IMG/VR virus record: IMGVR_UViG_3300029893_000220
Span: 1-24,092 of that record
Strand: one strand, 5' to 3'
Source: a virus
DNA: 24,092 nt
The notes under the pieces were generated by a model, which was given only the letters and a program-made list of their open reading frames with translations, was not told where the DNA came from and did not search any database. Of the stretch, positions 170 to 23,500 are shown piece after piece. Made by a program: the position numbers and the translations under genes. The stretch's first letter is position 1. Every line of letters begins with the position of its first letter.

Positions 170-173
170 ATTA

Positions 174-182: not shown

Positions 183-191
183 GTATAAATA

Positions 192-404: not shown

Positions 405-433
405 AAAGAGAATGGTCTAAAGTTATTAGACAC

Positions 434-459: not shown

Positions 460-532
460 GTAATGGAATTGCTTTCCTAAAACCTTATGTGGTTATATTA
501 TAGCAGATAAGTTAATAATCAAACAAGTCTAC

Positions 533-603
533 GTGGATCTATTTCAAGCGAAGGGCCTGTCTCCAAAACGAGTCCCGGGGTGCAACTCCCCTCCGGTCCA
601 CCA
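533..603 (+). tRNA. Degenerate tRNA-Trp(CCA)-like element
   Basis: A 71-base stretch can be drawn as a cloverleaf. GTGGATC (533-539) pairs with GGTCCAC (595-601) over seven pairs with one G-T. An anticodon-like arm (556-572) has loop CTCCAAA with T33 and anticodon CCA (Trp) at 563-565, but its stem has one C-A mismatch. A T-arm-like hairpin is GGGG-TGCAACT-CCCC (577-591), and CCA is at 601-603. Faults: the D-arm is only a 3-4 bp stem with a 4-base loop, the T-loop has G in place of T55, the variable region is short, and the 7-bp helix is out of register with the T-arm and the CCA. It may be a decayed phage tRNA, or a host tRNA/tmRNA 3'-end segment serving as an attachment core. No integrase is seen here. 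Confidence 0.4.
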
Positions 604-686
604 CAAAGTAACTCAAACCATAGTTAACTTTACCTAGTGTAAATGAAGATTGCAACATACTATCAAAATTGTGGATAACTTTCAAG

Positions 687-2651: not shown

Positions 2652-2655
2652 TTCA

Positions 2656-3309: not shown

Positions 3310-3323
3310 ATATTTTTAAACAC

Positions 3324-3350
3324 AAAAAAAGACGTCCAGTAACGGACGCC
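3324..3350 (-). terminator. Terminator-like hairpin before the adaptor gene
   Basis: Read leftward, GGCGTCC (3350-3344) pairs with GGACGTC (3337-3331), seven pairs including one G-U, with a 6-base loop, followed by seven Ts (3330-3324) and GTG. It separates the sugar-transferase cassette from the tail genes and ends 14 bases before the adaptor start codon. Confidence 0.65.
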
Positions 3351-3374
3351 TCTTCGAATTGTTTTCGTAAAAGA

Positions 3375-4780: not shown

Positions 4781-5378
4781 ACGCTTTTAAAAAGGGGATT
4801 TTCCACTTCTTTTCAAAAATCTGTTTCCCCTCCTCAAATGACTTATTTCTAATGCCAGCCTTGGTGCTAGTTTGCTCTTCTAAGTGTCTAACCTTAACCG
4901 AAGTCACCTGCTCCATCTTCACTCCATCTTTGAGAGCCTGGTAAAAGCGATCTAAGTCTCCAAAATAGTTCTTGAAAACCAGATCGTCCCCCTTCCATAT
5001 TTTTTTAGGAAACATAAAGAAAGCCCCATCCCACTTCGGCTCCTGCTTGCCTTCAATCAATGGAAAAGAAAAGCCATCTCTCTTAAGACTCGATAAGCTA
5101 CCCTCAAGAAGCAATGTGTCATTATTGATAACACAAACATATTCTTTAGTAGCCACAGCTACACCGTCATTTACTGACTTGGTGAAGCCTAGGTTGGGAT
5201 TATGTCTGATATAAAAGTTAGCGGTATCTCTCAAGAATCCAGCACTCAACTTTGACCCATCATCCACGATGATTAGCTCACCATATTGATTGTATAACGA
5301 GTAAAGACAGTCTCGGGTTATTTGACCTAGCTGTTCGTCTAATAAATAGATTGGTATAACAAGGCTTATTTCTTCCAT
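4746..5378 (-). CDS. Family 2 glycosyltransferase
   Basis: A 210-residue GT-A protein. ISLVIPIYLLDEQ forms the first strand, ELIIVDDGS (about residues 34-42) is the classical nucleotide-binding motif of family 2 enzymes, NPNLGFTKSVNDGVAVA is the usual helix after it, and CVINNDTLLL (about residues 82-91) takes the D-x-D position as N-N-D. At 210 residues it is shorter than typical enzymes of 250-300, and the C-terminus (residues about 165-210) is Lys-rich. It overlaps both neighbours (13 and 35 bases). It probably transfers a sugar in the same pathway as the adjacent transferases. The acceptor is unknown: virion protein or host surface glycan are both possible. Confidence 0.75.
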   Translation of the reverse strand: MEEISLVIPIYLLDEQLGQITRDCLYSLYNQYGELIIVDDGSKLSAGFLRDTANFYIRHNPNLGFTKSVNDGVAVATKEYVCVINNDTLLLEGSLSSLKRDGFSFPLIEGKQEPKWDGAFFMFPKKIWKGDDLVFKNYFGDLDRFYQALKDGVKMEQVTSVKVRHLEEQTSTKAGIRNKSFEEGKQIFEKKWKIPFLKAYEDLSASVSVC

Positions 5379-5854
5379 ATAATCACTGCTCCATTTATAT
5401 GACCCTTAATGGGTTCTATTCGATATCCTCTATCCTTAACGAACTCATCTATGGCTTTCTTGGCTCCAAAAGGCTGTCCATAATCATCACAGACTATATA
5501 CTTCCTTGCGAGTCTATCTACGGCCTCCAAATCTCTCCTGCACCCTTCATAAGAGTGGTCTCCGTCAACATATACCCAGTCATACTTATCAGTAAGTGTG
5601 GATAAAACCTGGACACTATCCCCATATTTAATATCCCAACGATCAGGAAAATAGGCACGAAAAGCACCTTCCTTGCCTTTATTATCATCCAAATCTATAG
5701 AAAGCAATGTGCCGTTAGAGCCCATCAAGTAAGCCCACGCACTCATTCCCCAGCAAAAACCAATCTCTAATCCCGTTTTGGGCTTTAGCTTTGTGACTAA
5801 ATTAACCAACGGCTGAATGTATTGATCTGGGTTTAGTTCTTGCTCAAATTCCAT
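5366..5854 (-). CDS. SAM-dependent methyltransferase, class I
   Basis: A 162-residue Rossmann-fold enzyme. LEIGFCWGMSAWAYLM (about residues 30-45) is motif I with the G-x-x-x-G-like loop for S-adenosylmethionine. LLSIDLDD carries the acidic residue that binds the ribose. YDWVYVDGDHSYEGCRRDLE (about residues 90-109) is motif IV in the form typical of the Methyltransf_24 group, often linked to sugar or cephalosporin-hydroxylase-type methylation. YIVCDDYGQPFGAKKAIDEF follows. It lies among glycosyltransferases with overlaps of 13 and 22 bases, so O-methylation of a glycan is the natural inference. The substrate is not shown by the sequence. Confidence 0.75.
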   Translation of the reverse strand: MEFEQELNPDQYIQPLVNLVTKLKPKTGLEIGFCWGMSAWAYLMGSNGTLLSIDLDDNKGKEGAFRAYFPDRWDIKYGDSVQVLSTLTDKYDWVYVDGDHSYEGCRRDLEAVDRLARKYIVCDDYGQPFGAKKAIDEFVKDRGYRIEPIKGHINGAVIIWKK

Positions 5855-6567
5855 CCTAGGAGTTTCTTAATTTCTAATGGTAAAGGTGACTTGACAGCCT
5901 CCTCAAAAACATTCGGTACGGTTGGGTGAAAGTTTTTATCACCCTCTCTCCACTTGAGCCACACATCTTGATACCAATTTGGCACAAGCTCATGAGCATG
6001 ACCCCATGAAGATATCTTTTTGACCATCTCGGCGTCAGTCCTCACATATGAGAGATGGTGAAGTGTTGTGTCTGGGATGTAAAAGTTGTCATAGTAAACA
6101 TCTCTAACACTAGAAAATCTTTGGTGAGGGCGCATGGCTAGTACAGGAGGACCTTGGGTGGGTGTAACAATATGGTCAAGGTCTTTCCAATAAACAAGCA
6201 TTTCTGATGGTTTATAAATCTCTCTCTTAGGAGAATTACCAAGAAAAGAGAAAATCTTGTCAAGCGACTCTTTGGTGTAAAACTCATCGATGTCTACGAT
6301 CAAACACCAATCGAAACCCTTGTCCTTAAAGTAATCCAGTCCAAAGTGTCTTTGATCCTCATCCTTGCTCCAGTTACCCTCAATTACAGTAGCACCGTTA
6401 TTCTTGGCAATTTGTGCGGTATTGTCTACCTCTTCCATTGCGCTTCCTTGCCAAGGCATGAGTGAGACTAGAACAAGGTGCTCAACATCAAACCCGTCAA
6501 ACTGTCTTATACAAGCCTTGATAAACCGCTCCTCATTGTATGCACAAGTAACTACCCCTACTTTCAT
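5833..6567 (-). CDS. Glycosyltransferase, family 2 / GT92-like
   Basis: A 244-residue protein starting MKVGVVTCAYNEERFIKACI, a canonical GT-A first strand with the A-Y-N-E motif. FDWCLIVDIDEFYTKESLDK (about residues 90-109) supplies the D-x-D metal motif as D-I-D-E, the form common in Glyco_tranf_2_4/GT92-like proteins. DEDQRHFGLDYFKDKGFDW just before it matches the usual D-Q-R-x-x-G region of that group. The C-terminal half is rich in Trp, His and Tyr (TTLHHLSYVR, WYQDVWLKWREGDKNFHP). It overlaps the upstream methyltransferase in an ATGA (4 bases) and the downstream one by 22 bases. Confidence 0.75.
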   Translation of the reverse strand: MKVGVVTCAYNEERFIKACIRQFDGFDVEHLVLVSLMPWQGSAMEEVDNTAQIAKNNGATVIEGNWSKDEDQRHFGLDYFKDKGFDWCLIVDIDEFYTKESLDKIFSFLGNSPKREIYKPSEMLVYWKDLDHIVTPTQGPPVLAMRPHQRFSSVRDVYYDNFYIPDTTLHHLSYVRTDAEMVKKISSWGHAHELVPNWYQDVWLKWREGDKNFHPTVPNVFEEAVKSPLPLEIKKLLGWNLSKN

Positions 6568-7076
6568 TTAACAAATCCTCTAATAATAACCAGGCGCATT
6601 ATTTCGTCCTGAAAGTATTGGGTGTCAGGATACTTAAAATCCTCTCTAAACCACACAGATCGGTGGTTTTCAGAGGGGTGACCCCGCCATGAATATTGAA
6701 TAAAGTCAAAAGGATACTGAATCAGTATATGCTTAGTACGATACATTAGAAAATCTAACAAATCTAAACCGTCAGATTTTTTGAGGTGTTCAAGTACATC
6801 ACCCAAGATCACCAAATCCCACACCTCATCAGTATGTCTATCTATCCACTTCTCGATTGGCTCTACGTCAAGATCACTGTATTTATCTCTAAGCCCATAC
6901 TCACCAACATAGGAATCATCAACCTCAACACCTCTAAGATAGCACTCAACCCCCAGCTCCTTGAGCATATCTGCATACTTACCGGCACCACAGCCCACAT
7001 CTAGCACCCTTTGTGGATTAATAGAGGATATAAATTCCTTGATTTTATCGTCAAATCTATGGTCAGATACCGGCAT
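6564..7076 (-). CDS. SAM-dependent methyltransferase, class I
   Basis: A 170-residue enzyme. RVLDVGCGAGKYADMLKELG (about residues 23-42) is a textbook motif I (D-x-G-x-G-x-G) for S-adenosylmethionine, GVEVDD supplies the acidic ribose-binding position, and VWDLVILGDVLEHLKKSDGL (about residues 88-107) is the L-G-D-V-L-E-H motif of the Methyltransf_11/23 group. The C-terminus is Tyr/Phe-rich. It overlaps the large double glycosyltransferase by 14 bases and the next transferase by 4. Methylation of a sugar or glycosylated product in the same pathway is inferred from context; the acceptor is unknown. Confidence 0.8.
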   Translation of the reverse strand: MPVSDHRFDDKIKEFISSINPQRVLDVGCGAGKYADMLKELGVECYLRGVEVDDSYVGEYGLRDKYSDLDVEPIEKWIDRHTDEVWDLVILGDVLEHLKKSDGLDLLDFLMYRTKHILIQYPFDFIQYSWRGHPSENHRSVWFREDFKYPDTQYFQDEIMRLVIIRGFVK

Positions 7077-9393
7077 TGAAGTTTTTAACCCAAACCTTGG
7101 AAATCTCGTCCCAAGTTTCTTTTTTAGCTAATTGTTTAATCTCATCACTCAGTTTGGTCGTGTCTTTACCCAACAGCTCAACAACCTTTCTTGCCACTGC
7201 CTCCTGGGTCTCTCTGTCATAAGGATCACCCTTAACCTTCTGGCAATATGGTTTTTCCTTAAGAGCGGCATAATCAGTGGTAACCGGGATACACCCAGCC
7301 ATTGCTGCTTGCCTAACAGTTATGCAATCTATCTCCTCGAATGTTGTAGCGTAGTAAAGTATCTTTGCCTTCGATTTTGCCTTTATCAAATCTGACTGCC
7401 CAACCCGTCCCTTCTCTGTCACCCCAGGCTGACTCATCAGCTCAATCATTCTCTTCTTCCAAGCCATTCTCTCTGGATTGTCTGAGTAAAACGAGTCAAA
7501 CAGTTTCCATCCGTAGTAAATATCTAGTGTCGCTTGTGGAAACTTCTCCCTAATAATCGGCCAGCCATATTTAAGCATATACTCAAGGCCGCGGTCATAC
7601 GATGAAGCATAGATCAACTTAAATGGATCACGCTTAGATTTGCTCCATTTAAAGCTCCCCCTGTCTACACCGTTGGGCACTATTACAAACTTGTCTTGCT
7701 TTACATGAGGTAAGAAAGTCTGGTGGTACTTAGTTTTGATGAATATCTTATCTACTTTTTTGAGCCTGTCTGCAGTAAACTCCATCGGATTAGGTACATC
7801 ATGCAAGTCAAGGAAAACCTTGTTTGCCTTCCAGTCCATATCCAACATTGATGGATTTCTCCAGATGATTAAGTTATCGAATTGATCTTTCTGATTAAAT
7901 CGGTAGTAGTTTAGGTACTCGACACCGTCATACTCACCCTCATCTGCACCAGGATTTCCGTATACAGTCACCTTGTATCCAGCCTTAGTCCAAAGCTTGC
8001 TTAACTGGATTACAGCCGTTTCAGACCCCCCAATACCTTGAGATAGGTTCTTTGGTGTCCAACTCTCAAAACCAGCACCACAGAAGTACACAACGGACCC
8101 TTTAGGCCACTTCTTTGGTGGCAGATAAGTATTTCTTAACTTATCCACAATTACCGTGTTCTGTACCTCTTCTGGTAATGAAGCCAGTAAGTTAAGGATT
8201 TTATCCTCTCGCTTTTGCTCCCCAAGCACAGAAACCATATCGGATATGTTTCTCATCCACTCACCCCACCTAACAAGCTTAGCTGCTGACTCCATCTTGT
8301 CTTTATGCTCCTTCGTCGGCATGATCTCGAAAAGCTCAGAGGCCACCTTCAAGGCTCTCTTCATATCTCTCTTGTGGAAATAAACTAGAAAGAGGGTGTT
8401 TAGGGCATTGATCTTATCATCCCTAGGAGTTAGAACCGCTGCAGTTTGAGGCTGCTTAATACTTAATCCCAAATTAACGTAAAACTCAGCCTTCCTAAAA
8501 TCTTTCTTCATGGCGTAGGTACGAGCCAGGGCTATATACCACGATGGCCACTCTGGCCTTTCATGAATTGCTGACTCATAACAAGAAATGGCGTCATCGT
8601 AGTTTCCCTGCAAGTAAAAGATGCCTCCAAGGTAATGCCATGCCTGGGCTCTTTCCTCATCCCATCCAGAATGACTCAAGTAATCCTGAAAGAGTGTCGC
8701 CGCCCTCTCATAACCCTTTTGGGTGTGAGTATCAAACAAACATCGAGCAAGGTAGTACTCAGTCCTCGGGTCTGGTTCTTTTCTTAATCCTTTAGCCACT
8801 TCTTTTAGCTCTCCGGCATACTGCTTACTTAGAATCCTTATATTCCGCTCTATCCCAGATATTTTGTTCTCATTGGTAGGCCAGTGATTAACTGCAAAGT
8901 CTTTAATATATTGAGTATTTACCTCAACCTTAGGCACAAGCGTCTCGTGCAGTGCGGCTTTCCACTTGTATTTACCGTTCCTGACAATCCTCTCTCTTGG
9001 GTGAACGATAACAACCTCCTTGGTTCGTGGGTCAATCTCGTAGTTATAGTCCACAAAAACACCATCTAGATTCTGGTTGTCCATCTCCTTGACTACCTCT
9101 GGGATGATCCTGGCATTTTGCACCACATCATCACTGTCTAGCCACAAAACATACTTATACCCCTTGGTTTGTTCAAAGTTAAAGTTTCTAGCAGCGGAGA
9201 AATCATCAATCCAGTCAAAATGAGACAAAGTAATCTTCTTATCCTCTAAGTCTTTCCAATTGTCTTTTGTTTGCGTGGTGGTAATAAAAGCATGGTCTAC
9301 ATACGCCAAAATAGATTTAAGACACCTCTTGACCTCATCAACCTCATTACCCTTGATAATCATTGCCAGTGCTAGTTTCTTCATGTTGCTCAT
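7063..9393 (-). CDS. Fused GT2 - TPR - GT4-like double glycosyltransferase
   Basis: A 776-residue protein with three regions. Residues about 5-200 are a family 2 GT-A domain: LALAMIIKGNEVDEVKRCLK begins the fold, DWIDDFSAARNFNFE is the usual W-x-x-D-F-S-x-A-R-N motif, and YVLWLDSDDVV is the metal-binding D-S-D-D. Residues about 205-320 hold TPR-like helices (AWHYLGGIFYLQGNYDDAIS, ALARTYAMKKDFRKAEFYV). Residues about 430-776 resemble a GT-B enzyme: GSVVYFCGAG, GIGGSETAVIQLSKLW for the N-lobe loop, then VIVPNGVDRG, IYASSYDRGLEYML and a C-terminal E-x7-E-like region around TTFEEIDCITVRQAAMAG. It is the first gene of the cassette, after the 9401-9784 gene. Starts at 9393 or 9384 are both possible and neither has a strong Shine-Dalgarno. 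Two transferase activities in one chain suggest sequential sugar addition. Confidence 0.8.
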   Translation of the reverse strand: MSNMKKLALAMIIKGNEVDEVKRCLKSILAYVDHAFITTTQTKDNWKDLEDKKITLSHFDWIDDFSAARNFNFEQTKGYKYVLWLDSDDVVQNARIIPEVVKEMDNQNLDGVFVDYNYEIDPRTKEVVIVHPRERIVRNGKYKWKAALHETLVPKVEVNTQYIKDFAVNHWPTNENKISGIERNIRILSKQYAGELKEVAKGLRKEPDPRTEYYLARCLFDTHTQKGYERAATLFQDYLSHSGWDEERAQAWHYLGGIFYLQGNYDDAISCYESAIHERPEWPSWYIALARTYAMKKDFRKAEFYVNLGLSIKQPQTAAVLTPRDDKINALNTLFLVYFHKRDMKRALKVASELFEIMPTKEHKDKMESAAKLVRWGEWMRNISDMVSVLGEQKREDKILNLLASLPEEVQNTVIVDKLRNTYLPPKKWPKGSVVYFCGAGFESWTPKNLSQGIGGSETAVIQLSKLWTKAGYKVTVYGNPGADEGEYDGVEYLNYYRFNQKDQFDNLIIWRNPSMLDMDWKANKVFLDLHDVPNPMEFTADRLKKVDKIFIKTKYHQTFLPHVKQDKFVIVPNGVDRGSFKWSKSKRDPFKLIYASSYDRGLEYMLKYGWPIIREKFPQATLDIYYGWKLFDSFYSDNPERMAWKKRMIELMSQPGVTEKGRVGQSDLIKAKSKAKILYYATTFEEIDCITVRQAAMAGCIPVTTDYAALKEKPYCQKVKGDPYDRETQEAVARKVVELLGKDTTKLSDEIKQLAKKETWDEISKVWVKNFNAGI

Positions 9394-14487: not shown

Positions 14488-16128
14488 TTACATACCCAGA
14501 TCAGAATCTACCTCCTCCTGAAATTGGGGTAATTGATAATTAGATATCTGTACTACAGGGCTTTCAACTTGGTATAACTGCCAAGCGATAGCCAGTGCCA
14601 TACAGTTATGAACCAAGATATTGTTGGCAAAATACTCTGGAGTTTCTGCAACTTGGAGGTTATAAACTCTTTGCTTTCCGGCGATAACGCGACCCACAAA
14701 GTTGTGAACAAAACTTAGCACCCAAAGTACGGGTGTAAATAAACTTTTTACCACATTCCGCACAAATGGCTTCTTTCCTTTCTCCATGAATACTAAGACG
14801 AGCTGCTCGTCGAGCTTGTTCTTTCCACTTTTCTGGGTTGGCGGCTCTCCATTTTGCAAGCGTCTCTTTAATTCTTTTAGCGTTTTTGAGTCCGTTTCTA
14901 CGAAGAAGAGCTTGGTATTCGTCTGGGTTTTCTTCTTTCCACTTTTTGAGGGCTTGAATAGCTCTACTAGCTTGTCGTTTGCCATTTTCGCTATACACCC
15001 GGCTTGCTTCTTTGGGGTTGTTTTTCCGCCACTCTCGTAACTGTCTAACCAGTCGCTTGGCTTGCCGATGACCGTTAGACACAATGAGTTTATGCCTATC
15101 TGGTTCAAGAAGGTGTTTGGTGATGTGCTTACCCTTTTCCTCAAGTGCAAGATTGTCTGGTGAGTTATTAAGAGGATTACCATCTTTATGGTGAACAACA
15201 TATCCCTTAGGGATTGAGCCAAAATTGTCAATCCAAATTTGCCTGTGGAGTGCAAATGGAGGTTTTTTCCACTTATCGTGTCGCCAATAATAGACCCTAA
15301 GCTGTCTTCTCTTTGAATTTGGGTAGCGGTGATACTTTTTTCCTCGATACTCGATTGTTTCTCGTTCCACATGTATATTATATCACTGGCCTTAACTGTA
15401 GCAAGAGAGACAGTGCCTTTTTTCGTTATAATTGGATGGTCGGGAGTTCCCGTAAGTCCTAGGTTCGTAACTACCTTGGCATACCTAGAGTTGGTGGCAA
15501 TTACTGGTCTATAACCATTTCGGGTCATTACCAAATCTCCAACTCTAATGTTTTCTATTGGCACTTGGCCATTATTTGTTAGTATTTTTGTTCCTGCCAC
15601 GAAACATAAATCATCATGGGCTCCTTCCTCGGCTTGGGGTTTTCCAGATCTGCTGATAATGAAGGTGAACAACTCTTTTACTGTTGGTTTATGGTAGAGC
15701 TTGATTAGCTGTTTATCTATAGCCTCCTTTAAATCTTGAAGCATTTTAGGCCTAGTGGCCGTGTTAGTATCCCACCCAATCTTACTGCTCTCTGGGTTAT
15801 TTATAGCTCCGTAGCTTGGCATGGTAAAAATCTTGTATTTCCCGTTTCTGTTCAGCGTTGCAAGACGCTCTAACTCAAACACCCCGCCGTTTTGTCTTTC
15901 ATAAGCCACCACCGGCTGAATTCCTGTCTCATCAAATATTCTTTCAAGCTCAATGTGAATGGTTGGGGTAACTGAGGTAATGCTTTGCTTAACGTAGATT
16001 ACACCAGGAACATCAAGATTGGTTTTGGAAAGGAATTGTGCTGCAGTAAAGTCATTCGCCCCCGCTGATGGGTCAACTCCAACTGTGATAAATTCTCCCC
16101 GGTTGTATTTTCTATATTGTTGCAACAT
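14488..16128 (-). CDS. terL: Large terminase nuclease subunit with intein
   Basis: A 546-residue precursor. Residues 1-174 and 509-546 form an RNase H-like terminase nuclease domain: GVDPSAGAND (first acidic Asp19), VVAYERQNGG (Glu77) and AHDDL (Asp172/173) are the three metal-binding motifs. Residues 175-508 are an intein. Splicing would join GAHDDL to CMALAIAWQLY and restore the helix that carries the HDD motif. The ATG at 16128 overlaps the ATPase gene by 17 bases in the +1 frame; an in-frame TAG at 16143-16141 prevents upstream extension, so the two halves are separate ORFs unless ribosomes shift within 16140-16115. In most phages both domains are one polypeptide. This nuclease cuts concatemeric DNA at packaging start and end. 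Confidence 0.85.
   Translation of the reverse strand: MLQQYRKYNRGEFITVGVDPSAGANDFTAAQFLSKTNLDVPGVIYVKQSITSVTPTIHIELERIFDETGIQPVVAYERQNGGVFELERLATLNRNGKYKIFTMPSYGAINNPESSKIGWDTNTATRPKMLQDLKEAIDKQLIKLYHKPTVKELFTFIISRSGKPQAEEGAHDDLCFVAGTKILTNNGQVPIENIRVGDLVMTRNGYRPVIATNSRYAKVVTNLGLTGTPDHPIITKKGTVSLATVKASDIIYMWNEKQSSIEEKSITATQIQREDSLGSIIGDTISGKNLHLHSTGKFGLTILAQSLRDMLFTIKMVILLITHQTILHLRKRVSTSPNTFLNQIGINSLCLTVIGKPSDWLDSYESGGKTTPKKQAGCIAKMANDKLVELFKPSKSGKKKTQTNTKLFFVETDSKTLKELKRRLQNGEPPTQKSGKNKLDEQLVLVFMEKGKKPFVRNVVKSLFTPVLWVLSFVHNFVGRVIAGKQRVYNLQVAETPEYFANNILVHNCMALAIAWQLYQVESPVVQISNYQLPQFQEEVDSDLGM
14660..15370 (-). CDS. HNH homing endonuclease nested out of frame in an intein
   Basis: A 236-residue protein with a GTG start at 15370, in the frame offset by two bases from the intein that contains it. 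FGSIPKGYVVHHKDGNPLNN (residues 50-69) followed by SPDNLALEEKGKHITKH is a canonical HNH_3-type nuclease core: His60/His61, Asn69, Asn73 and His82/His86. Three W-x(4-5)-NP helical repeats follow (residues about 110-190: WRKNNPKEA, WKEENPDEY, WRAANPEKW), probably DNA-recognition modules. The C-terminus has C-x2-C-x14-C-x3-C (ICAEC...FCSQLC), a zinc finger. It would cut intein-less terminase genes and so drive intein spread. A promoter-like TTGCTA-N16-TATAAT lies directly upstream. No Shine-Dalgarno is seen. Confidence 0.85.
   Translation of the reverse strand: MERETIEYRGKKYHRYPNSKRRQLRVYYWRHDKWKKPPFALHRQIWIDNFGSIPKGYVVHHKDGNPLNNSPDNLALEEKGKHITKHLLEPDRHKLIVSNGHRQAKRLVRQLREWRKNNPKEASRVYSENGKRQASRAIQALKKWKEENPDEYQALLRRNGLKNAKRIKETLAKWRAANPEKWKEQARRAARLSIHGERKEAICAECGKKFIYTRTLGAKFCSQLCGSRYRRKAKSL
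15377..15403 (-). promoter_or_regulatory. Promoter-like sequence inside the intein, before the HNH ORF
   Basis: On the minus strand TGATATAAT (15385-15377) is a perfect extended -10, and TTGCTA lies 16 bases upstream (about 15403-15398) as a partial -35. Transcription would begin near the GTG start of the HNH gene, giving an almost leaderless message. Confidence 0.45.
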
Positions 16129-18055
16129 CCTTAACTTGCTCTAAATATGCCTTGAGAGCTTCTTTGTCAAAATAGTTATCACCCGACGCTATAAACGCCT
16201 CTTCTGGTGTCTCTGGATATTCTTGTGGGTAGAGTCTCCCGAGCTCCTTTCTCTTTTGCTCTAAGAAATCTTGTGAATAAAACAACGATGCTGAAAAAAA
16301 CAAAGGGTTAAATCCCGTTAATCCAAGCTCGGACTCATCCCAAAACTCCTTCAACTCATTAAAACCATTTGCTGTGGTCTCTATTACCACTCTTCCATCC
16401 GGCCTAACAGCTTGTAGAGCTGAGGCTAAAAGCTTCCTAAAGTGTTTGTAAAAAGCCGCCTCCGAGTTTGAGATCACCCCACAAGGAGTAAGAAATGCGT
16501 GGGACTTGTCCTTGACCTCTATCTCATAGGTCTGTTGGGGGGGGGCGTCTTCTATTGACTTAACCTTAATAAACAAGCCCCCATTACATGAAGACATATT
16601 CCTAGTAGTTAAATAGCGATACTTCATCCCCTTAAAACTTTTTGCCCCATTTTTCTTTTTCTGAGAAAAACCATGCACCCTTAATCTATAGATCGGTTGG
16701 GTTTTGTTCTCGTATCTTTTCCTGTTTTCCACATAGTCAAGAGCGGGAATCCTGTGATTTAACAGGCAATAGATTTGCCTCATCTGCCTTCCTATGCTTT
16801 CCCTGATAGTGGTTATAAACACCATCTCTTGCCTCCCATTTTTTACATAATCCAACTTTGAGCCGTCTCCATCCTTCCAACCATCAAATAATCCCAAAAG
16901 AAACTTCTTTGGATACTGATACAAAAACTTATCAGGAATATATTTGTTTTCAGCCCTACCAACCAGATCATTAACAAACATTGCTATTTCCCTAGAAAAG
17001 TACGTGATTATTTTTCTGGTCCCACTGTTATCTGATCTGATATCCACCCTAGGGCTTATTGGAAACAAGTCAATAAAGTTCTCATAAAAGTATTCATCAG
17101 GATGACAAGCAAAAGAAATCTTATTTAAGTCTTTTGTGATGTTTCCCTCGGCCAGGTAATAGCCTAAAAAATAACCCAGCTTATAATTCGTCTTCAAAAC
17201 TAAACCAGAGCTTCTTACATTACCTATTTTTCCATTTGGAGCTCTCTTTCTTACGAGATGTTTTGCGTTTTTCTGGTTCCTTACTACCAGATGTTTTACA
17301 TAAGCCCCCGTCTTTGGATATGCCCACATAACATAATCATCGGTAGTTAAATCCTTGGCCTTTTTCCATACTGGATCCGATAGGCGACTGTTATGCCCAG
17401 CACCAGCAACCCGAATCTTATGATCTGGAGAAACATCGATAGTTTCATTTGATAACCACAGTCTGATTCTTTTTATTGGTTTGATGCCAGTGTTCCATTT
17501 ATTAGTAACCTCAGTGAGGCCACCATCTTCAGCGATCACCCTGTCTCCTATTTCTATATCCTTTATCTTCTTTGTGATCCCGTTTTTACTAATTATTTTA
17601 GTGTCTCCGCCTACACACATGTGCAAATTTTTGATAGTCTTTGACCTTCCAAACTCCGTATTTTCAGCTGTACCTATCTGATATTTACTGTTTATTACTT
17701 CATTAACGAGCTCGTATTTAGAGTTGTACTTAAGTGGAATCTTCATTCCTGTTTTTTGCTCATACGACTGAAGGTAAAACTTAACCTTATCAAGCAATCC
17801 TATGGCGTTATCTGCGACGTCTGCGACAACTACTGAGTGAGAGTTAGGGTCAAGAATAAAATCTCCAGCAAAAATACCACCAATAAATGATGAAAAACCC
17901 TCTTGTCTAGCCTTAAGTAAGATATCTCTACCAGTTGCTTTGTTAGCAAATAACCGTTGCGGACCGTTTGGCACAAACTGAACTATCTGACCTTGTTTAT
18001 CTATAATCTCAAGACGTTGCTCGATAAATTTCTCGTAAGGCTTATAGACACTCAT
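16112..18055 (-). CDS. terL: Large terminase ATPase subunit with intein
   Basis: A 647-residue precursor. Residues 1-146 and 531-647 form the terminase ATPase. LLKARQEGFSS (about residues 46-56) is the variant Walker A of this family. Splicing joins IKNLHM to SEAAFYKHF, restoring the L-H-x-S-E Walker B with its catalytic Glu. VVIETTANGFNELKEFW is the following motif III region, and PETPEEAFIASGDNYFD is the usual end of the ATPase domain. Residues 147-530 are an intein with a LAGLIDADG endonuclease. The start overlaps the small terminase stop in an ATGA (18052-18055). The 3' end overlaps the nuclease ORF by 17 bases. This motor pumps DNA into the prohead through the portal. Confidence 0.9.
   Translation of the reverse strand: MSVYKPYEKFIEQRLEIIDKQGQIVQFVPNGPQRLFANKATGRDILLKARQEGFSSFIGGIFAGDFILDPNSHSVVVADVADNAIGLLDKVKFYLQSYEQKTGMKIPLKYNSKYELVNEVINSKYQIGTAENTEFGRSKTIKNLHMCVGGDTKIISKNGITKKIKDIEIGDRVIAEDGGLTEVTNKWNTGIKPIKRIRLWLSNETIDVSPDHKIRVAGAGHNSRLSDPVWKKAKDLTTDDYVMWAYPKTGAYVKHLVVRNQKNAKHLVRKRAPNGKIGNVRSSGLVLKTNYKLGYFLGYYLAEGNITKDLNKISFACHPDEYFYENFIDLFPISPRVDIRSDNSGTRKIITYFSREIAMFVNDLVGRAENKYIPDKFLYQYPKKFLLGLFDGWKDGDGSKLDYVKNGRQEMVFITTIRESIGRQMRQIYCLLNHRIPALDYVENRKRYENKTQPIYRLRVHGFSQKKKNGAKSFKGMKYRYLTTRNMSSCNGGLFIKVKSIEDAPPQQTYEIEVKDKSHAFLTPCGVISNSEAAFYKHFRKLLASALQAVRPDGRVVIETTANGFNELKEFWDESELGLTGFNPLFFSASLFYSQDFLEQKRKELGRLYPQEYPETPEEAFIASGDNYFDKEALKAYLEQVKDVATI
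16466..17617 (-). mobile_element. Intein with LAGLIDADG endonuclease in the terminase ATPase
   Basis: Residues 147-530 of the ATPase precursor (384 residues). Block A begins CVGGDTKIISKNG. Block B is DVSPDHKIRVAG. Two LAGLIDADG helices lie at residues about 293-304 (LGYFLGYYLAEG) and 385-398 (FLLGLFDGWKDGDG), each ending in an acidic residue as required for a single-chain homing endonuclease. The C-terminal block is SHAFLTPCGVISN followed by Ser531. The penultimate residue is Ser, not the usual His. The insertion splits the Walker B motif just before its S-E pair. Confidence 0.92.
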
Positions 18056-18468
18056 ATCCCGAAGGCGTCTTTCTCACTCTTTAGGTGGTTTAAGACATTT
18101 ACTTGAATGTTATTTGTCGTTTTCTCTTCTACATCTCCAGCTGCCTTCCTCATATCTTTCCAGTAGTTATAATCACGGACAGCATTTTTCATGCCAATTT
18201 TGTCTAAAGTTGGAAGCCAACGCCTACGAGCCTTCCTATACGCCTCGTAATACCAGTCCTCAAATCCAGGTTTCTCCAGCCACTTATACCAAGCTTGCTT
18301 CGTCATTTTACTTGCTGCAGCAATCTCCGTAGGTGAGTCAGAGTGTATTTCTACTGCTACAGCGAGCCATTTTTCCATTCCAGGAGTAGGATTAAACTCC
18401 TCCGTTTCGGTCAACTCTTTTGACTTTTGTATTGCCGTATCAGTCTTTTTTATCATAGGGTCTAACAT
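18052..18468 (-). CDS. terS: Small terminase subunit
   Basis: A 138-residue protein. Residues about 40-75 (SPTEIAAASKMTKQAWYKWL) form a helix-turn-helix typical of small terminase N-domains, which recognise phage DNA. They are followed by the W-L-E-K-P-G-F-E-D-W region and a long basic helix (YEAYRKARRRWLPTLDKIGM). The C-terminal segment (residues about 105-138) would assemble the oligomer and contact the ATPase. It overlaps the ATPase start by 4 bases (ATGA), the classic terS-terL coupling. Upstream lie two 9-bp direct repeats and an extended -10, so this is a likely entry point for late transcription. Confidence 0.75.
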   Translation of the reverse strand: MLDPMIKKTDTAIQKSKELTETEEFNPTPGMEKWLAVAVEIHSDSPTEIAAASKMTKQAWYKWLEKPGFEDWYYEAYRKARRRWLPTLDKIGMKNAVRDYNYWKDMRKAAGDVEEKTTNNIQVNVLNHLKSEKDAFGI

Positions 18469-18572: not shown

Positions 18573-19100
18573 TCATGGCTTCCATTGTGTTAAATTACAA
18601 GCTTGCTTCCATAAATCATTTGATTGATATTCTGCTGGATTAAAAGGATGCTCACCACTAAGTAAGCCCCTATGATCATGATTAAAATAAACGTCCATTT
18701 CTCCAGTATCATATTTTTCACCAATATACGCTTCCTCCCAATAATCATGTCTAACATCCCCAATAACATAACCGTCATATTTTAACCCCGTACCCAACAA
18801 TAAAACCGGTCTCGTTGGCGTAAATGTCTCGTCCTCGTCTAAGTGGGGATAATTTCTATCAATCTCCTCTTTAGTTCTTTCTGCCAGCCCCTCATTGAAA
18901 CTCAAAATTGGTTTAACTTCCACAAGTATCACTTTATTATTCATCCCGTACAACGCAAAGTCAGGTATCCAACCATCAAAATCCAAAGGTTCATACTCCC
19001 ACTTCCAACCAACTAGGTCAAAGAAAGCAGCCCACCTCGCTTCTAATCTGGAGCGAAATCTAACATTTTTATAAATTGTCGGTATCGGCGCTATCCCCAT
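18573..19100 (-). CDS. PD-(D/E)XK-like nuclease, unknown role
   Basis: A 175-residue protein. NVRFRSRLEARWAAFFDLVG (residues about 12-31) carries the helix with Glu of such folds, GWIPDFALYG supplies the catalytic Asp, and KVILVEVKP supplies the E-x-K. Together they form a complete P-D-x(n)-E-x-K site near the N-terminus. The C-terminal half has many His, Asp and Trp residues (DVRHDYWEEAY, DVYFNHDHRGLLSGEHPF) and no known domain. Similar small proteins occur in many phage genomes beside replication genes, usually unassigned. Start at ATG 19100 with AAAGGA upstream. It lies between the iteron-like region and terS, so it could process replicating DNA or degrade host DNA. Confidence 0.65.
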   Translation of the reverse strand: MGIAPIPTIYKNVRFRSRLEARWAAFFDLVGWKWEYEPLDFDGWIPDFALYGMNNKVILVEVKPILSFNEGLAERTKEEIDRNYPHLDEDETFTPTRPVLLLGTGLKYDGYVIGDVRHDYWEEAYIGEKYDTGEMDVYFNHDHRGLLSGEHPFNPAEYQSNDLWKQACNLTQWKP

Positions 19101-19102
19101 AT

Positions 19103-19354
19103 TTATTTTTTCCTTTCAAGAAAAAAAGTATTATCTATCAAAGTCCTATAATCTTCACCTTTGCAAAACGCCATTCTTCCTTTGCAATGCAACCCCCCTT
19201 TAGGGGGGTATTGCAAACGAGAATTTAGGCACGTTTGCAAACGAGAATTAACACTACCACTGCAAACGATGGATGTATCAATCCTTTCTCTTTTGCAATG
19301 GTATTGCAAAGGTATTGCAAACGAGAAAATCAACTTGTCAAAAAAGTATCTCAT
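19103..19354 (-). CDS. Doubtful 83-residue ORF across the iteron-like repeats
   Basis: An ORF whose ATG overlaps the helicase stop (ATGA, 19351-19354) and whose stop is 2 bases before the nuclease start, which is the tiling of a real operon gene. The predicted protein is unusual, though: Cys/Arg/Ser-rich with no domain, and its middle (VNSRLQTCLNSRLQ) is simply the translation of the TTGCAAACGAGAA repeats. It may be coding DNA in which an origin is embedded, or an accidental open frame. I favour the origin as the selected function. Confidence 0.3.
   Translation of the reverse strand: MRYFFDKLIFSFAIPLQYHCKRERIDTSIVCSGSVNSRLQTCLNSRLQYPPKGGLHCKGRMAFCKGEDYRTLIDNTFFLERKK
19161..19330. repeat. Iteron-like array, candidate replication origin
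   Basis: TTGCAA occurs seven times (19161, 19182, 19211, 19235, 19293, 19304, 19315) in 170 bases. The longer unit TTGCAAACGAGAA occurs exactly at 19211, 19235 and 19315, and partially as CTGCAAACGA at 19260. Spacings of 24-25 and of 11 and 11 bases keep copies on one helix face. A perfect hairpin ACCCCCC-TTTA-GGGGGGT lies at 19192-19209. The array sits directly beside the primase/helicase gene, as phage origins often do. Confidence 0.6.
19192..19209. repeat. GC hairpin inside the iteron-like array
   Basis: ACCCCCC (19192-19198) and GGGGGGT (19203-19209) are a perfect 7-bp inverted repeat with loop TTTA. It could act as a single-strand initiation or primase-loading structure, or as a weak transcription barrier between the helicase and nuclease genes. 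Confidence 0.6.
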
Positions 19355-20946
19355 AGTTCTTGATCATCCTCCTCCATAACTGGTCTAAAATACACCCTTT
19401 TCCGATGGTTGTTCTCATCTTGTCTATAATCGACATCCTGACTTTTGACTAAAGTCCCCAGTACCGTATCAGCAGTTCTCTTAGATATATCTTTACTCTC
19501 ACACGCCTTATAAAGATCATCCTTGGTAAATTCGTAATTTTTATCCAACAGCTCAGTTATCACTTGCCTGGCCTCAGCGTTCTTGGCTTCAATATCTATC
19601 ACCTCTCCCCCATAAGCAACTTCTGATATGTAAGTCCCCTTCCCATTAGGATTGACCTGAGATACTAAGTTGACTTTAAATTTTGATAGTTTTTGAGAGT
19701 CCCTAGCCTTGGTCTGCTCAAAAGAAAATTCATTGATTGTGTTAGGCATAGCTGCCACCCTGAAACCTGATACTATTTGAGCATTGATGTTGGTACTCCC
19801 TCTGGCTCTTTGTGCTGAACTTCTTACTGTCATTGATGGCTTGTTCTCATGGTGTAGTACCAAAAACGCCCTACCTGGAAACAACCGCCTTAATGTGTCA
19901 AAAAATACTTGGGTATCCCCAGCAGCATTCTCATTCCCAATCATTACGTCAGTGAAAGAGTCAATTACAATCAAACCAATGTTCAGCGCTTCAACCTTCC
20001 TCGATAGAGATTTGGCAAACTTTGATATGCCATCATCTTCCTTTGGATCAGTTAAATCAAAATAATGGGGGTACTTGACCCGATAAATCATCCCGTCCTT
20101 ATCCTCAATACCCATACCCTTAAACCGATCTTGAGAGATTTTCCTTGAGTTCTCCTTGTCAATAAAAAGCATTTTGGTTTTTGTGTTGATCGCAAATCTA
20201 CCCAACCACGGGCTATTCTCGACAATGGCTTTGGCTATAGAAAGCGTATATAACGACTTACCAGTACCCTCAGCACCAAAAATAAAAGTAAACCCTTCTG
20301 CTGGCAATACCCTCTCAATTATCCATTTTTCCTCGGGTATATCCTCTGCTAGTAATTCTGATATTTCTTCTAGTTGAAACTCATCAGGCTCATGCTTGTC
20401 CAGCCATTGATCTAAAGAAAGCAACTCGACCATCAAATCCTCCACCTTGTAGTCTTTCTCAAAATACTCGCACACATCCTTAACTCCTTCAGGTAGCTCA
20501 ATGATCGCCGGTTTAGCTCCAACATTCTCTAGTGTCTTGTAGTGCTTCTCAATTGCCTTCTTTCCAGCGTCATCGTTGTCCAGGCAAATATATACGTCCT
20601 TGCCCCTTAACGGCTCTAAAATATCCTCACTCACCGACTCAACTCCGTTGGTTGATGTTACTGCTGGTATGCCCTCTTGCCACAATCTCACGCAATCTGG
20701 CTCACCTTCACAGTAAACCACCCATTCCTTGTCTTTAGTCACGTGGCTGGCATAAAGCATCTTCTTAGCTCCAGGGTCAAAGCTAAATTTTGTGTCACCA
20801 GTCAGGTGGCGATAGTGATTGAACATCACCTCTCCATCCCCATTCTTGATCGGTATGGTTATCTTGTCATCATCCCACGACCAGCCAAACTTCTTGGCAA
20901 ACTCCGGATCTATTGTGTGGCTATCAAAATACTCTTGGGCAGTCAT
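19351..20946 (-). CDS. Replicative TOPRIM primase / RepA-like helicase
   Basis: A 531-residue protein. Residues about 75-150 are a TOPRIM domain: WVVYCEGEPDCVRLWQEG supplies the catalytic Glu, and DVYICLDNDDAGKKAIEKH the D-x-D. Residues about 205-450 are a RecA-like ATPase of the RepA/AAA_25 type: FTFIFGAEGTGKSLYTLSIA is Walker A, LNIGLIVIDSFTDVMI is Walker B, and AFLVLHHENKP is the sensor region. The C-terminus (residues about 460-531) looks like a winged helix (TKDDLYKACESKDISKRTAD). The zinc-binding domain of primase is missing here and is supplied by the upstream ORF, which overlaps by 4 bases (20943-20946). The protein would prime and unwind DNA at the phage fork. Confidence 0.85.
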   Translation of the reverse strand: MTAQEYFDSHTIDPEFAKKFGWSWDDDKITIPIKNGDGEVMFNHYRHLTGDTKFSFDPGAKKMLYASHVTKDKEWVVYCEGEPDCVRLWQEGIPAVTSTNGVESVSEDILEPLRGKDVYICLDNDDAGKKAIEKHYKTLENVGAKPAIIELPEGVKDVCEYFEKDYKVEDLMVELLSLDQWLDKHEPDEFQLEEISELLAEDIPEEKWIIERVLPAEGFTFIFGAEGTGKSLYTLSIAKAIVENSPWLGRFAINTKTKMLFIDKENSRKISQDRFKGMGIEDKDGMIYRVKYPHYFDLTDPKEDDGISKFAKSLSRKVEALNIGLIVIDSFTDVMIGNENAAGDTQVFFDTLRRLFPGRAFLVLHHENKPSMTVRSSAQRARGSTNINAQIVSGFRVAAMPNTINEFSFEQTKARDSQKLSKFKVNLVSQVNPNGKGTYISEVAYGGEVIDIEAKNAEARQVITELLDKNYEFTKDDLYKACESKDISKRTADTVLGTLVKSQDVDYRQDENNHRKRVYFRPVMEEDDQEL

Positions 20947-21287
20947 AAATTTTTGGCAATTTCTACCGCCTCACTGAATGAACAGTTGTTAATAAACATG
21001 ATTAAGTCAATAGCCGACCCCTTCTCTCCACAGGCAAAACAAAAATAACTATTAGTGTCCTCGTACATGGCAAAGCTTGGATTGTTCTCGCCGTGGAATG
21101 GACAAAGAGACACAACTGCCCGTCCAGACCTTTTTGTCTGTCCGCCAACCAACTTATCATACACATTAAGAATACTCACTTGCTTATAATCATCGTTCTT
21201 TGTTCTTGGAATACTACCCCTCAATTTTCTTAACACTCTTCTTTGTTGTGATTGTGTGAGCATATACTTGACAATATCAGAAAACAT
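20943..21287 (-). CDS. Separate CHC2 zinc-finger domain of primase
   Basis: A protein of 114 residues from ATG 21287, or 106 from ATG 21263 (MLTQSQQRRVLRKLRG). VVSLCPFHGENNPSFAMYED followed by SYFCFACGEKGSAIDLIMFI is the complete C-P-F-H...C-x2-C zinc ribbon that starts DnaG-type primases and reads the template. The TOPRIM-helicase ORF follows with an ATGA overlap, so the two chains probably form one primase. The first start lies inside the 41-bp palindrome and has no Shine-Dalgarno. The second would fit a nearly leaderless message from a promoter within that palindrome. Confidence 0.85.
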   Translation of the reverse strand: MFSDIVKYMLTQSQQRRVLRKLRGSIPRTKNDDYKQVSILNVYDKLVGGQTKRSGRAVVSLCPFHGENNPSFAMYEDTNSYFCFACGEKGSAIDLIMFINNCSFSEAVEIAKNL

Positions 21288-21303
21288 GATAAAGTCAAGT
21301 ATA
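21263..21303. promoter_or_regulatory. 41-bp palindromic operator in the divergent control region
   Basis: TATACTTGAC (21263-21272) and GTCAAGTATA (21294-21303) are perfect 10-bp arms. TATCA (21275-21279) and TGATA (21287-21291) are a second perfect pair with the same centre at 21283. Each outer arm contains TTGAC, so -35-like hexamers TTGACA (rightward, 21268) and TTGACT (leftward, 21298) lie inside it. On the leftward side TATTGT (21276-21271) follows at 16 bases. A rightward -10 is less clear (GATAAA at 14 bases). A dimeric repressor here would control both directions. Confidence 0.65.
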
Positions 21304-21308
21304 GAAAT

Positions 21309-21506
21309 ATGAAGACATACAAAAAATACCTATCAGTCGGAGAAGTTGCCCTCATGTTTGGAGTAAAAAAATTAACGGTTAGACAATGGATTAAGAATGG
21401 TGAGATCAATGCAACTAAAATTGGTCAAAAGTGGTTTTTCCGCCAAGAGGACATAGATCAATTATTTGTTGATAATCCCAGAGAGGAGGTGAACACAACC
21501 AAATGA
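21309..21506 (+). CDS. Excisionase/MerR-like HTH DNA-binding protein
   Basis: A 65-residue protein from ATG 21309; an upstream TTG at 21252 would run through the palindrome and is rejected. KYLSVGEVALMFGVKKLTVR (residues 6-25) followed by QWIKNGEINATKIGQKWFFR is the HTH_17/excisionase-type winged helix: helix-turn-helix, then the G-x-I-x-x-x-x-x-G-x-x-W-x-x wing. It is the first gene to the right of the 41-bp palindrome and so a good candidate for the protein that binds it. Excisionases of this fold act with integrases, but none is visible, so a regulatory role is favoured. A strong Shine-Dalgarno for the next gene (AGGAGGTG, 21484-21491) lies in its last codons. Confidence 0.8.
   Translation: MKTYKKYLSVGEVALMFGVKKLTVRQWIKNGEINATKIGQKWFFRQEDIDQLFVDNPREEVNTTK
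21484..21491 (+). promoter_or_regulatory. Strong Shine-Dalgarno of the SSB-like gene
   Basis: AGGAGGTG lies 11 bases before the ATG at 21503, inside the end of the HTH gene. ACAACCAA (21495-21502) fills the space up to the start codon. It fixes the SSB start. Confidence 0.8.
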
Positions 21507-22072
21507 TTGCACCAGACCAAAAGCTAAACATAAAAACTGAAAGTAACGGATTTGATCCAATTCCAGCAGATAAGTACACCGTTGAGGTGTTTGATGTAAA
21601 TATGGTTACGCAATTCAACAAGTTCCAGGGTGTCGAACAAGAACTACTTAACTTTCAGTTCGTCATTCTTGAGGACAAGAAGATGGACAACGGCGATTCA
21701 ACCAAAGGCAGGTTCCTCTGGAAACGCTGCTCACAGTCTTTTAATAAAAAAGCCTGGCTTAGAAAACTCGTTGCCGCAGCACTAGGACATGAACCTACCG
21801 AGGATGAGCAAAGAAACTTCCACCCACACGATATTCTTGGTAAGCAGGTTGACGTTATGGTCGAGCAACAGCCATCAGCTGACGGCTCCACCATCTACAA
21901 CAACATCATCTCCTTTACCAAGGCATCTAAACAACTTCCTAAGTGGGAAGGCGTGAAAGAAGCTAAAAAGAAATCCGACATCCATATTGATGGTATTGGC
22001 GGAAGGAAAAGCAAGAAATCGTCTGCGGAAGATATCGAGAAGATATTAGCTGACGACGAGATCCCTTTCTAA
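21503..22072 (+). CDS. Single-stranded DNA-binding protein, phage type (DUF669-like)
   Basis: A 189-residue protein. The central part (residues about 20-135) has the alternating strands of an OB fold (YTVEVFDVNMV, QELLNFQFVILEDKKMD, GRFLWKRCSQSFNKKAW), matching the DUF669 group found in phage recombination and replication cassettes. The C-terminus is a flexible Lys/Ser stretch ending in the acidic tip ADDEIPF, the partner-binding tail found on bacterial and phage SSBs (D-D-x-I-P-F). It would cover single strands at the fork and recruit the primase or the neighbouring RecB/Cas4-type nuclease. It overlaps the HTH gene by 4 bases (ATGA) and has the best Shine-Dalgarno of the rightward genes. Confidence 0.8.
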   Translation: MIAPDQKLNIKTESNGFDPIPADKYTVEVFDVNMVTQFNKFQGVEQELLNFQFVILEDKKMDNGDSTKGRFLWKRCSQSFNKKAWLRKLVAAALGHEPTEDEQRNFHPHDILGKQVDVMVEQQPSADGSTIYNNIISFTKASKQLPKWEGVKEAKKKSDIHIDGIGGRKSKKSSAEDIEKILADDEIPF

Positions 22073-22154: not shown

Positions 22155-22162
22155 GACCTTAA

Positions 22163-22185
22163 GTTAGCAATCAGCAACAACCAAC
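22163..22185 (+). promoter_or_regulatory. Shared leader without Shine-Dalgarno, copy 1
   Basis: GTTAGCAATCA (22163-22173) followed by AACAACCAAC (22176-22185) leads directly into ATG. A second copy precedes the 23159 gene. The A/C-rich leader has no anti-Shine-Dalgarno complement and should be unstructured. Confidence 0.6.
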
Positions 22186-22872
22186 ATGACAGTAGTTCCC
22201 CAAAGAAGAGGACCATTTTACTGGAAAGGCACAAAACCCTACGTCTCAGTCACTAATGCTATATCCATTTTAGACAAACCAGCTCTGAGATATTGGTTTG
22301 GCCGTGAGGTCTACCGAGCCTTTATGGCCGACCCCTCCCTCAACGAACAGGAGGCCCTACAAGCTCCCTACAAGAAATCAAAAGACGCCATGAGTAGGGG
22401 TACAACCATTCATACCCTAATTGAAGCCTACAAACAAACAGGAGAAGTTAAGACCGACATCCCCGACAGTATCAAACTTTACATGGAAGCATTTAAGGAT
22501 TGGTTGGGCAATAACCATGTGGAAATAGTGGAGAGCGAAAAAACTCTCTACTCTGACAAATATGGTTATGCTGGCACGGCAGATTTGATTGTTAAGATCA
22601 ACGGTTCGGGGGTATACGTGGTTGACACCAAAACAGGCAAAGACATCTATCCGGAAGTCGCTTTGCAACTCTCAGCTTACAAACAAGCTCTTGAGGAAGA
22701 TGGGTTAAAGATTGACGGGATGGCTGCTTTACTTCTGGAGACTGGGGCTGACAATAAGCCAACAGGTAAGTATAAATTTGCCACTCAGCAAGACTACTTT
22801 GAGCAGTTTTTAGCTTGTAAGAAACTGTGGGAATGGATAAATCAAGATTTAGTTAGCAAATATTACAAATAA
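22186..22872 (+). CDS. RecB/Cas4-type PD-(D/E)XK nuclease
   Basis: A 228-residue enzyme with the motif order of the PDDEXK_1 family. SRGTTIHTLIEAYKQT (residues about 70-85) has the His that closes the site, KYGYAGTADLIVKINGS (about 125-141) holds the G-x-x-D with the catalytic Asp, VYVVDTKTGK (about 144-153) supplies the D-x-K, and VALQLSAYKQAL (about 158-169) is the QxxxY motif. An iron-sulfur cysteine set is not present, so it resembles simple phage exonucleases more than true Cas4. It follows the SSB gene, so 5'-3' resection in recombination or replication is likely. Start at 22186, from the promoter at 22126 and the leader at 22163. Confidence 0.85.
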   Translation: MTVVPQRRGPFYWKGTKPYVSVTNAISILDKPALRYWFGREVYRAFMADPSLNEQEALQAPYKKSKDAMSRGTTIHTLIEAYKQTGEVKTDIPDSIKLYMEAFKDWLGNNHVEIVESEKTLYSDKYGYAGTADLIVKINGSGVYVVDTKTGKDIYPEVALQLSAYKQALEEDGLKIDGMAALLLETGADNKPTGKYKFATQQDYFEQFLACKKLWEWINQDLVSKYYK

Positions 22873-23126: not shown

Positions 23127-23133
23127 ATAAACA

Positions 23134-23158
23134 GTTAGCAATCATAAAACAACCAACC
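23134..23158 (+). promoter_or_regulatory. Shared leader without Shine-Dalgarno, copy 2
   Basis: GTTAGCAATCA (23134-23144) and AACAACCAACC (23148-23158) precede the ATG directly. The 11-base first part is identical to copy 1 at 22163, and the second part differs only in length. Confidence 0.6.
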
Positions 23159-23500
23159 ATGACCAACAAAGTCAAACTTCTCAATAAAATAACCGCGGAG
23201 CTTCAAGCAATGAAAGAAATCTTGTATGGCTCAAGGATGTTCTCATTCAACCAAATTAAAGACGCTTGCGAGAAAGCTGGAGTAGACAAAGATATATTCA
23301 CAGCTATTGAAGCCGAGCTAATCGAGACGTTTTCCAGACAAGACGATCACGACTGCCACGCTTCACCCGAAGATGGTTGTACCGAATGTGAGAAGCAACT
23401 GGATGATATAAGCGAAGAGTGGGCGTTAAGAGAGCGTGAAGACTTTGATAGAGCAGTTAGCACACACGAGAGCAATTATATGGACAGGGTGGCTGGTTAA
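23159..23500 (+). CDS. Early protein of unknown function, possible zinc site
   Basis: A 113-residue acidic protein. Residues 1-55 are helical (NKVKLLNKITAELQAMKEIL; EKAGVDKDIFTAIEAELIET). HDCHASPEDGCTECEKQLDD (residues about 60-79) has a His, a Cys, a His and a C-x2-C pair that could form a small metal site. The C-terminus is charged (EEWALREREDFDRAVSTHES). No family is recognised. It has its own promoter and shared leader, unlike the overlapping genes of the leftward block, so independent early expression is likely. Host-takeover or regulatory roles are possible but not shown. Confidence 0.7.
   Translation: MTNKVKLLNKITAELQAMKEILYGSRMFSFNQIKDACEKAGVDKDIFTAIEAELIETFSRQDDHDCHASPEDGCTECEKQLDDISEEWALREREDFDRAVSTHESNYMDRVAG

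Follow-up and report, generated by a model that had tools for sequence, protein, structure and literature searches.

The alpha protein of phage P4 combines primase, helicase and origin-binding parts in one protein, and belongs to another helicase class than the enzyme described below. RSF1010 RepA is a RecA-fold helicase, and there a separate protein, RepC, binds the iterons. In SaPI Rep and in Cch2, the C-terminal domain binds iterons located downstream of the protein's own gene (PMC7581432, PMC6092414, in the text available), and the accessible part of a 2018 paper states that the SaPI/PICI Rep-ori organisation is found in "no other known bacterial replicon". The origin of pRN1, whose ORF904 carries a C-terminal winged helix, also lies downstream of the replication gene and has an essential stem-loop, and this system is compared with P4 alpha in the same text, as far as available (PMC4234260). 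Phage TLS encodes a separate primase and helicase, and the available text on this phage gives no such repeats (PMC11447400).

Here, we describe an array of iterons in a viral stretch of 24,092 bases (the window), an IMG/VR record that is classed as linear and is probably a fragment. The array lies directly 3' of a helicase gene, which is the same position as that of the origin in the SaPI/PICI rep-ori and SCCmec Cch2 systems, although its function in the window is that of a candidate origin. As in the PICI/SaPI elements, the array consists of an element-specific word repeated beyond chance. However, the SaPI/PICI helicases are of the Rep/Cch types (DUF927 or D5/primase-C-terminal), whereas the window encodes a TOPRIM and RecA-fold enzyme of tailed phages. 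PICI origins, in the available descriptions, consist of two iteron sets around an AT-rich region, whereas in the phage arrays a hairpin is common and the AT-rich part is weak; the window array does not have two sets arranged around such a region. The phage group differs in its helicase family and in its AT-rich layout and therefore falls outside SaPI/PICI; by analogy it seems to work like the SaPI/PICI and pRN1 systems without being a member of them. As described in the text at hand, pRN1 has a 100-nt stem-loop, lacks iterons and encodes an archaeo-eukaryotic primase with an SF3 helicase, whereas the window has iterons and a short GC stem. Finally, a lambda-type ori is an iteron array read by a phage initiator, as we propose for the window, but the lambda iterons are inside the initiator gene, whereas the window array is outside the helicase gene, on its 3' side.

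Table 1. Iterons, genes and other features at and around the array (window coordinates).
Feature	Position	Strand	Basis or remark
Likely terS	18052-18468		phrog_24579, E 0.0016; array ~0.7 kb upstream
AT-rich flank, candidate unwinding stretch, weak	19100..19149		80% AT versus 58% mean
ORF across array, 83 aa, judged not a gene	19103..19354	-	No Pfam/PHROG match at limits used
Iteron array, putative ori	19154..19327	both orientations	8-9 TTGCAAA(CGAGAA) copies, including imperfect ones
Iteron TTGCAAAGGTGAA, 2 mismatches	19154..19166	-
ORF across array, 72 aa, doubtful ORF of the original prediction, judged not a gene	19161..19379	+	ORF list
Iteron TTGCAAAGGAAGA, 3 mismatches	19175..19187	-
GC hairpin ACCCCCC-TTTA-GGGGGGT, 7-bp stem	19192..19209		Sequence, inverted-repeat search, folds; flanking iterons able to pair around hairpin
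Iteron, exact 13-mer	19211..19223	+
Iteron, exact 13-mer, palindromic core	19235..19247	+	Overlaps 3-mismatch copy 19228-19240 (-)
Imperfect iteron CTGCAAACGATGG	19260..19272	+	TGCAAACGA at 19261
Iteron TTGCAAAAGAGAA, 1 mismatch	19286..19298	-
Iteron TTGCAAAGGTATT, half site	19304..19316	+
Iteron, exact 13-mer	19315..19327	+
TOPRIM + RecA/AAA_25 helicase, 531 aa, candidate initiator	19351..20946	-	Pfam, structure model
Predicted winged-helix domain of helicase, residues ~452-522, candidate iteron reader	19381..19593	-	Model, comparison
CHC2 zinc-ribbon primase piece, separate gene	20943..21287	-	4-bp overlap with helicase; precedes helicase
Small HTH_17/excisionase-like protein, alternative candidate initiator or regulator	21252..21506	+	Divergent from helicase
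ssDNA-binding-protein-like, phrog_378, E 2e-6	21503..22072	+	Homologues beside helicase in L262, L263, L265
PD-(D/E)XK exonuclease, phrog_298	22186..22872	+

As listed in Table 1, the array contains copies in both orientations. The hexamer TTGCAA occurs seven times in 160 bp (at 19161, 19182, 19211, 19235, 19293, 19304 and 19315), and the exact 13-mer TTGCAAACGAGAA three times (at 19211, 19235 and 19315), so that both counts of the original prediction were borne out. The same prediction had named a scatter of the 13-mer through the genome as the finding that would speak against an origin, and the 24,092-base contig holds no copy beyond the three in the array. The window as a whole has 16 TTGCAA hexamers against a shuffle mean of 9.1, a number reached by 2 of 100 shuffles. 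When hexamers with at least three different letters were counted per 170 bp, the array reached 7 for TTGCAA and 8 for TGCAAA, compared to a maximum of 5 across 100 dinucleotide shuffles, and outside the array hexamers at 7 per 170 bp were found solely inside the pentapeptide-repeat gene of the window. All five window sites of TTGCAAANGNGAA, on both strands, are inside the array. The array is thus beyond chance and confined to one place of the contig. Inverted copies are also present (e.g., 19285-19299 versus 19314-19328, 93%), which had escaped the original prediction. The seven hexamers are spaced 21, 29, 24, 58, 11, and 11 bases from start to start, so their helical phasing is partial: the predicted spacings of 24 and 11+11 are present, and 25 is obtained only by counting the imperfect CTGCAAACGA at 19260. 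The predicted 7-bp GC hairpin was located between the second and third hexamer, and 23 bases separate the helicase stop codon from the array, in agreement with the proposed place beside the TOPRIM-helicase gene. AT content within the array is 52-68% (50-bp windows), with the AT-rich part at the array edge. The GC skew across the contig shows no turn at the array and is uninformative.

The only Pfam families found in the window helicase at E 0.001 were AAA_25 and Toprim. Foldseek matches of a low-confidence model included Twinkle, gp4, DnaG and KaiC, and the enzyme models, with low confidence, as most like Twinkle / T7 gp4. Since the full-length model is poor (pLDDT 59), we limited its use to the C-terminus. 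Helicases with 46-47% identity to that of the window are encoded in L262, L263 and L265, where homologues of the zinc-ribbon, helicase, SSB-like and exonuclease genes are grouped. By eye, two early genes of the window (22160-22190 and 23130-23162) have a common leader resembling GTTAGCAATCA...CAACCAAC-ATG. Downstream of the array follow a small nuclease-like gene (phrog_21138 relative; 18573-19100, minus strand), the likely terS and terL. Relatives of the nuclease-like gene were found in 113 viral stretches. In Rhizobium phage TM3_3_14B, a homologue is the gene immediately before the primase/helicase gene, and in N65 a short match overlaps the endonuclease I gene that immediately precedes the primase/helicase gene. 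The large terminase (14488-18055, minus strand) is divided between two overlapping genes, each of which carries an intein-like Hint insertion. L160, L155 and L164 lack the insert and align on either side of residues 148-530 of the first of these genes. The intein-like region of the second contains, in a different frame, an HNH_3 endonuclease ORF (14660-15370, minus strand, E 4e-14). The capsid protein matches Pfam SU10_MCP, and other IMG/VR contigs contain relatives of the structural genes. Within the structural module (3375-9393, minus strand) is a block of genes whose translations, by eye, resemble glycosyltransferases and methyltransferases, and L073 has a similar block.

Comparison with relatives supported the predicted candidate origin, as arrays were found at the same position behind other helicase genes. 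We compared 28 loci, consisting of the window, 9 of the 12 loci obtained in a search with a 57-residue TOPRIM alignment (L264, L269 and L271 were left out as copies of L263, L268 and L270), and 18 loci from records of named phages. In 14 of the 28, thus in 13 of the 27 besides the window, a single 8-mer occurs four or more times within 350 bp at the helicase 3' end. This fraction is no population estimate, since the loci were picked by hand from match lists for diversity and not at random, and the window itself counts among the 14. The 8-mer word differs in each of the 14 array loci, and in every case the count was reached by none of 200 shuffles. Other gene ends in the helicase loci reached four copies in 3 of 207 cases, comprising two arrays just 5' of the helicase gene (L241, L261) and one coding pentapeptide repeat. 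Because these 207 ends mixed coding and non-coding sequence, the control was repeated with ORF-free gene ends. With 80 ORF-free bases after the gene end, 3 of 106 reached four copies, and under the strict definition (a gene end with no ORF of 100 aa in at least the next 120 bases) 2 of 87, which are the 5' arrays of L241 and L261. With loci treated as independent, the Fisher p value was 2e-12 against the 207 ends and 1e-8 against the strict control. Eleven of the 28 lacked a 3' array, their best 8-mer count being 2; the two loci with 5' arrays, Arthrobacter BruhMoment and Microbacterium FreddieHg, belong to this group. Three loci were marginal, with a count of 3 that was reached by 12 (L262), 2 (L266) and 10 (L239) of 200 shuffles.

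The arrays share position and design, and no relative carrying the same iteron words as the window was found. Immediately after the helicase stop, L263 carries CCCATATC words and a hairpin with 18-bp arms, L265 has TCCGCCAA words and hairpins, and L262 has the looser, marginal array. More distant helicases are followed by nine GCACCCAA (L267), four CCGTTCAC (L268) or four TAGTGTGA (L273) words, and 3' arrays were also present in Acidithiobacillus phage AcaML1, Wolbachia phage WO (KX522565), whose gp5 is annotated as similar to RSF1010 RepA, Alteromonas PB15, Salicola CGphi29, Idiomarinaceae 1N2-2, Rhizobium N65 (12 copies), Rhizobium TM3_3_14B and Roseobacter CRP-406. Eight extra loci of close relatives added six with an array, namely a 99.9% copy of WO, Alteromonas XX1924 (near PB15) and four CRP phages; the other two, the Wolbachia-phage loci L289 and L290, had no 3' array. 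Look-alike words occur in distant phages (window and L287, L265 and L282). As the words vary between phages, sequence similarity cannot find these putative origins. The 15-mer TTGCAAACGAGAATT was found in 69 IMG/VR stretches, which is near chance by estimate, with a best TTGCAA cluster of 3 per 200 bp, and was rejected as a probe. Searching viral and genome contigs with the helicase as a single protein gave no matches, and a first two-sequence helicase alignment recovered the known contig and an identical copy only, with none in genome contigs. A window-type helicase was absent at E 1e-4 from the best 80 of the 113 stretches matching the neighbouring nuclease gene, and relatives by structural genes contained the helicase in 2 of 22 records, one of them partial, most of these records having other replication genes or being fragments.

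An 8-mer scan of 21 contigs or pieces, mostly from structural-gene relatives, reached four or more copies outside ORFs in G003, L073 and G019 alone, besides the window array, which falls in the doubtful ORF. L073 (750-840) carries four to five AAAGAATGCTTT-like words upstream of terL that adjoin a C6/G6 inverted repeat (by eye), and this contig ends before any helicase. G019 has five ACCTTTTT-like words in non-coding sequence (L259, 2594-2690), ~2.3 kb before terL, and no helicase was recognised by eye among its ORFs within 1-9000. G017, a relative of the window by capsid, portal and terminase, contains an apparent lambda-O-like initiator ORF (by eye; L256, 15743-16363) with four TAACCAAA words inside.

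In many related phages the repeats behind the helicase gene have the same place but another spelling, which suggests that the enzyme's own C-terminal tail reads the iterons. When the last 90 residues of the window helicase were aligned with three relatives, the resulting model had the order helix-strand-helix-helix-strand-strand (pLDDT 81-88 for residues 11-80), and the C-terminus thus models as a winged helix. The top matches among solved structures were MarR-family winged-helix repressors (best E 2.6e-3, none below 0.001). Of ten C-termini scanned, some were matched by Pfam winged-HTH models, always below cut-off, and 2 of the 10 had no match. Identity between the window and L235 helicases is 26.5% in the C-terminus versus 52-56% in the helicase core and TOPRIM.

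The Roseobacter CRP phages allow the reader and the word to be compared at close range. CRP-811 and CRP-823 have eleven ACTACAAA-type words (one mismatch allowed), and CRP-821 and CRP-831 have ten TGTATAAA-type words at offsets that match those of the first pair within one base and with the same strand pattern. Also conserved are the 16-bp hairpin AAACCCTTTAGGGTTT inside the array and the beginning of the next gene. The CRP-823 and CRP-821 helicases are 97% identical over residues 1-420, 99% over 421-600 and 74% from 601 to the end (~145 residues). For this last part, identity is 99% within a pair and 74-76% across the two pairs, whereas residues 421-600 are 98-100% identical in all four phages and residues 1-420 are at odds with the pair grouping (97% for CRP-823/CRP-821, 85% for CRP-811/CRP-823). 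Judged from these sequences, the C-terminal domain and the iterons travel or change together in the CRP phages, because only residues 601 to the end and the iteron word follow the pairs. CRP-821 and CRP-823 were isolated on the same host strain, according to the available paper on these phages, whose main text contains no word beginning with 'repeat' (PMC12629253). A graded series of words, GGTTCA in Alteromonas PB15/XX1924, GGTACA in Idiomarinaceae 1N2-2 and GGGACA in Salicola CGphi29, possibly points to joint change as well; the C-termini of these phages diverge in the order of the words, and so does the rest of the helicase, to a lesser degree. Over 19 array loci, Mantel correlations of iteron similarity were r 0.64 with the C-terminus and r 0.53 with the rest of the helicase. 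When three near-duplicates were dropped, they fell to r 0.25 (p 0.014) and r 0.17 (p 0.042), a weak correlation that would be expected if the words are rewritten quickly.

Two other readings of the array, both unlikely, are close to each other in probability. The array could be an operator, through which the helicase C-terminus or another regulator controls transcription of the helicase or of the genes downstream, which are late genes here, without any origin function. It does lie between co-directional genes, and repressors are the closest folds of the C-terminal model, but a search with a simple sigma-70 consensus found no promoter in 19100-19360, and the downstream gene is annotated differently from phage to phage, whereas the array keeps its place next to the helicase. 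Marginally less probable is an origin that is read by another protein, either the HTH_17 protein or a host factor, with the helicase only recruited. Many plasmid origins rely on a separate initiator, and by eye L235 has an HTH-like ORF at the same place as the window; the CRP iterons, however, change with the helicase C-terminus, and the single annotated HTH gene of CRP-821 is 5 kb from the helicase.

Much less probable than either is a pac/cos packaging site made of terminase-binding repeats upstream of the terminase genes. The short distance to the likely terS in the window (Table 1) and the 21-bp spacing of the L073 repeats, ~170 bp before terL, would suit such a site. In other phages the linkage is not seen, since the array is ~3.3 kb from the ORF preceding terL in L157, ~3.3 kb from terS in CRP-821 (across the record start) and ~8.6 kb from terL in RHph_N65, so that its position follows the helicase and not the terminase. 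We consider it very improbable that the array is a coding or untranslated-RNA feature, i.e., a repetitive ORF or a folded transcript at an operon joint, for although the predicted RNA fold is strong (z -5.7) and an ORF with its ATG on the helicase stop crosses the array in the window and, by eye, in L157, the array folds because its palindromic core is present in many copies, the minus-strand ORF has no family match and by eye does not resemble the L157 ORF in the corresponding place, and the best Rfam match of the region had E 0.5 and scored 17 bits where the gathering score is 55.

The reading that we consider probable is that replication starts at the array and that the adjacent helicase recognises this origin through its C-terminal winged helix. 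The repeats themselves are, judging from the sequence comparisons, very probably the start point for copying the phage DNA. According to this model of an origin read by the helicase, the C-terminal winged-helix domain would bind the iterons, several helicase protomers would assemble at the sites, some of which are spaced by one helical turn, opening would take place at the hairpin, the AT-rich flank or both, and the helicase would load and start the fork. Iteron word and reading domain would evolve jointly as one cassette, giving each phage its own origin specificity.

On balance, we also favour a broader view, with less confidence, namely that these loci represent a widespread phage replicon type, in which RecA-fold TOPRIM helicases bring their own winged-helix origin reader, the origin lies directly 3' of the gene, and both form a swappable cassette in which a change of reader goes with a concerted rewriting of all iterons. 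We found no description of this helicase and 3'-iteron layout in phages in the open-licence literature. If true, the replicon type would be convergent with SaPI/PICI Rep, and the claim that the PICI organisation is unique would fall. To our knowledge, direct origin recognition is not known for the RecA-fold ring-helicase class, which would then gain this property. CRP-821 and CRP-823 suggest that origin specificity may be swapped between close phages of one host strain, and the paired differences in C-terminus and iterons are a ready-made candidate recognition code. If the rule holds, origins would become readable in many phage genomes, cultured or not, as a repeated word right behind the gene for a TOPRIM/RecA helicase.
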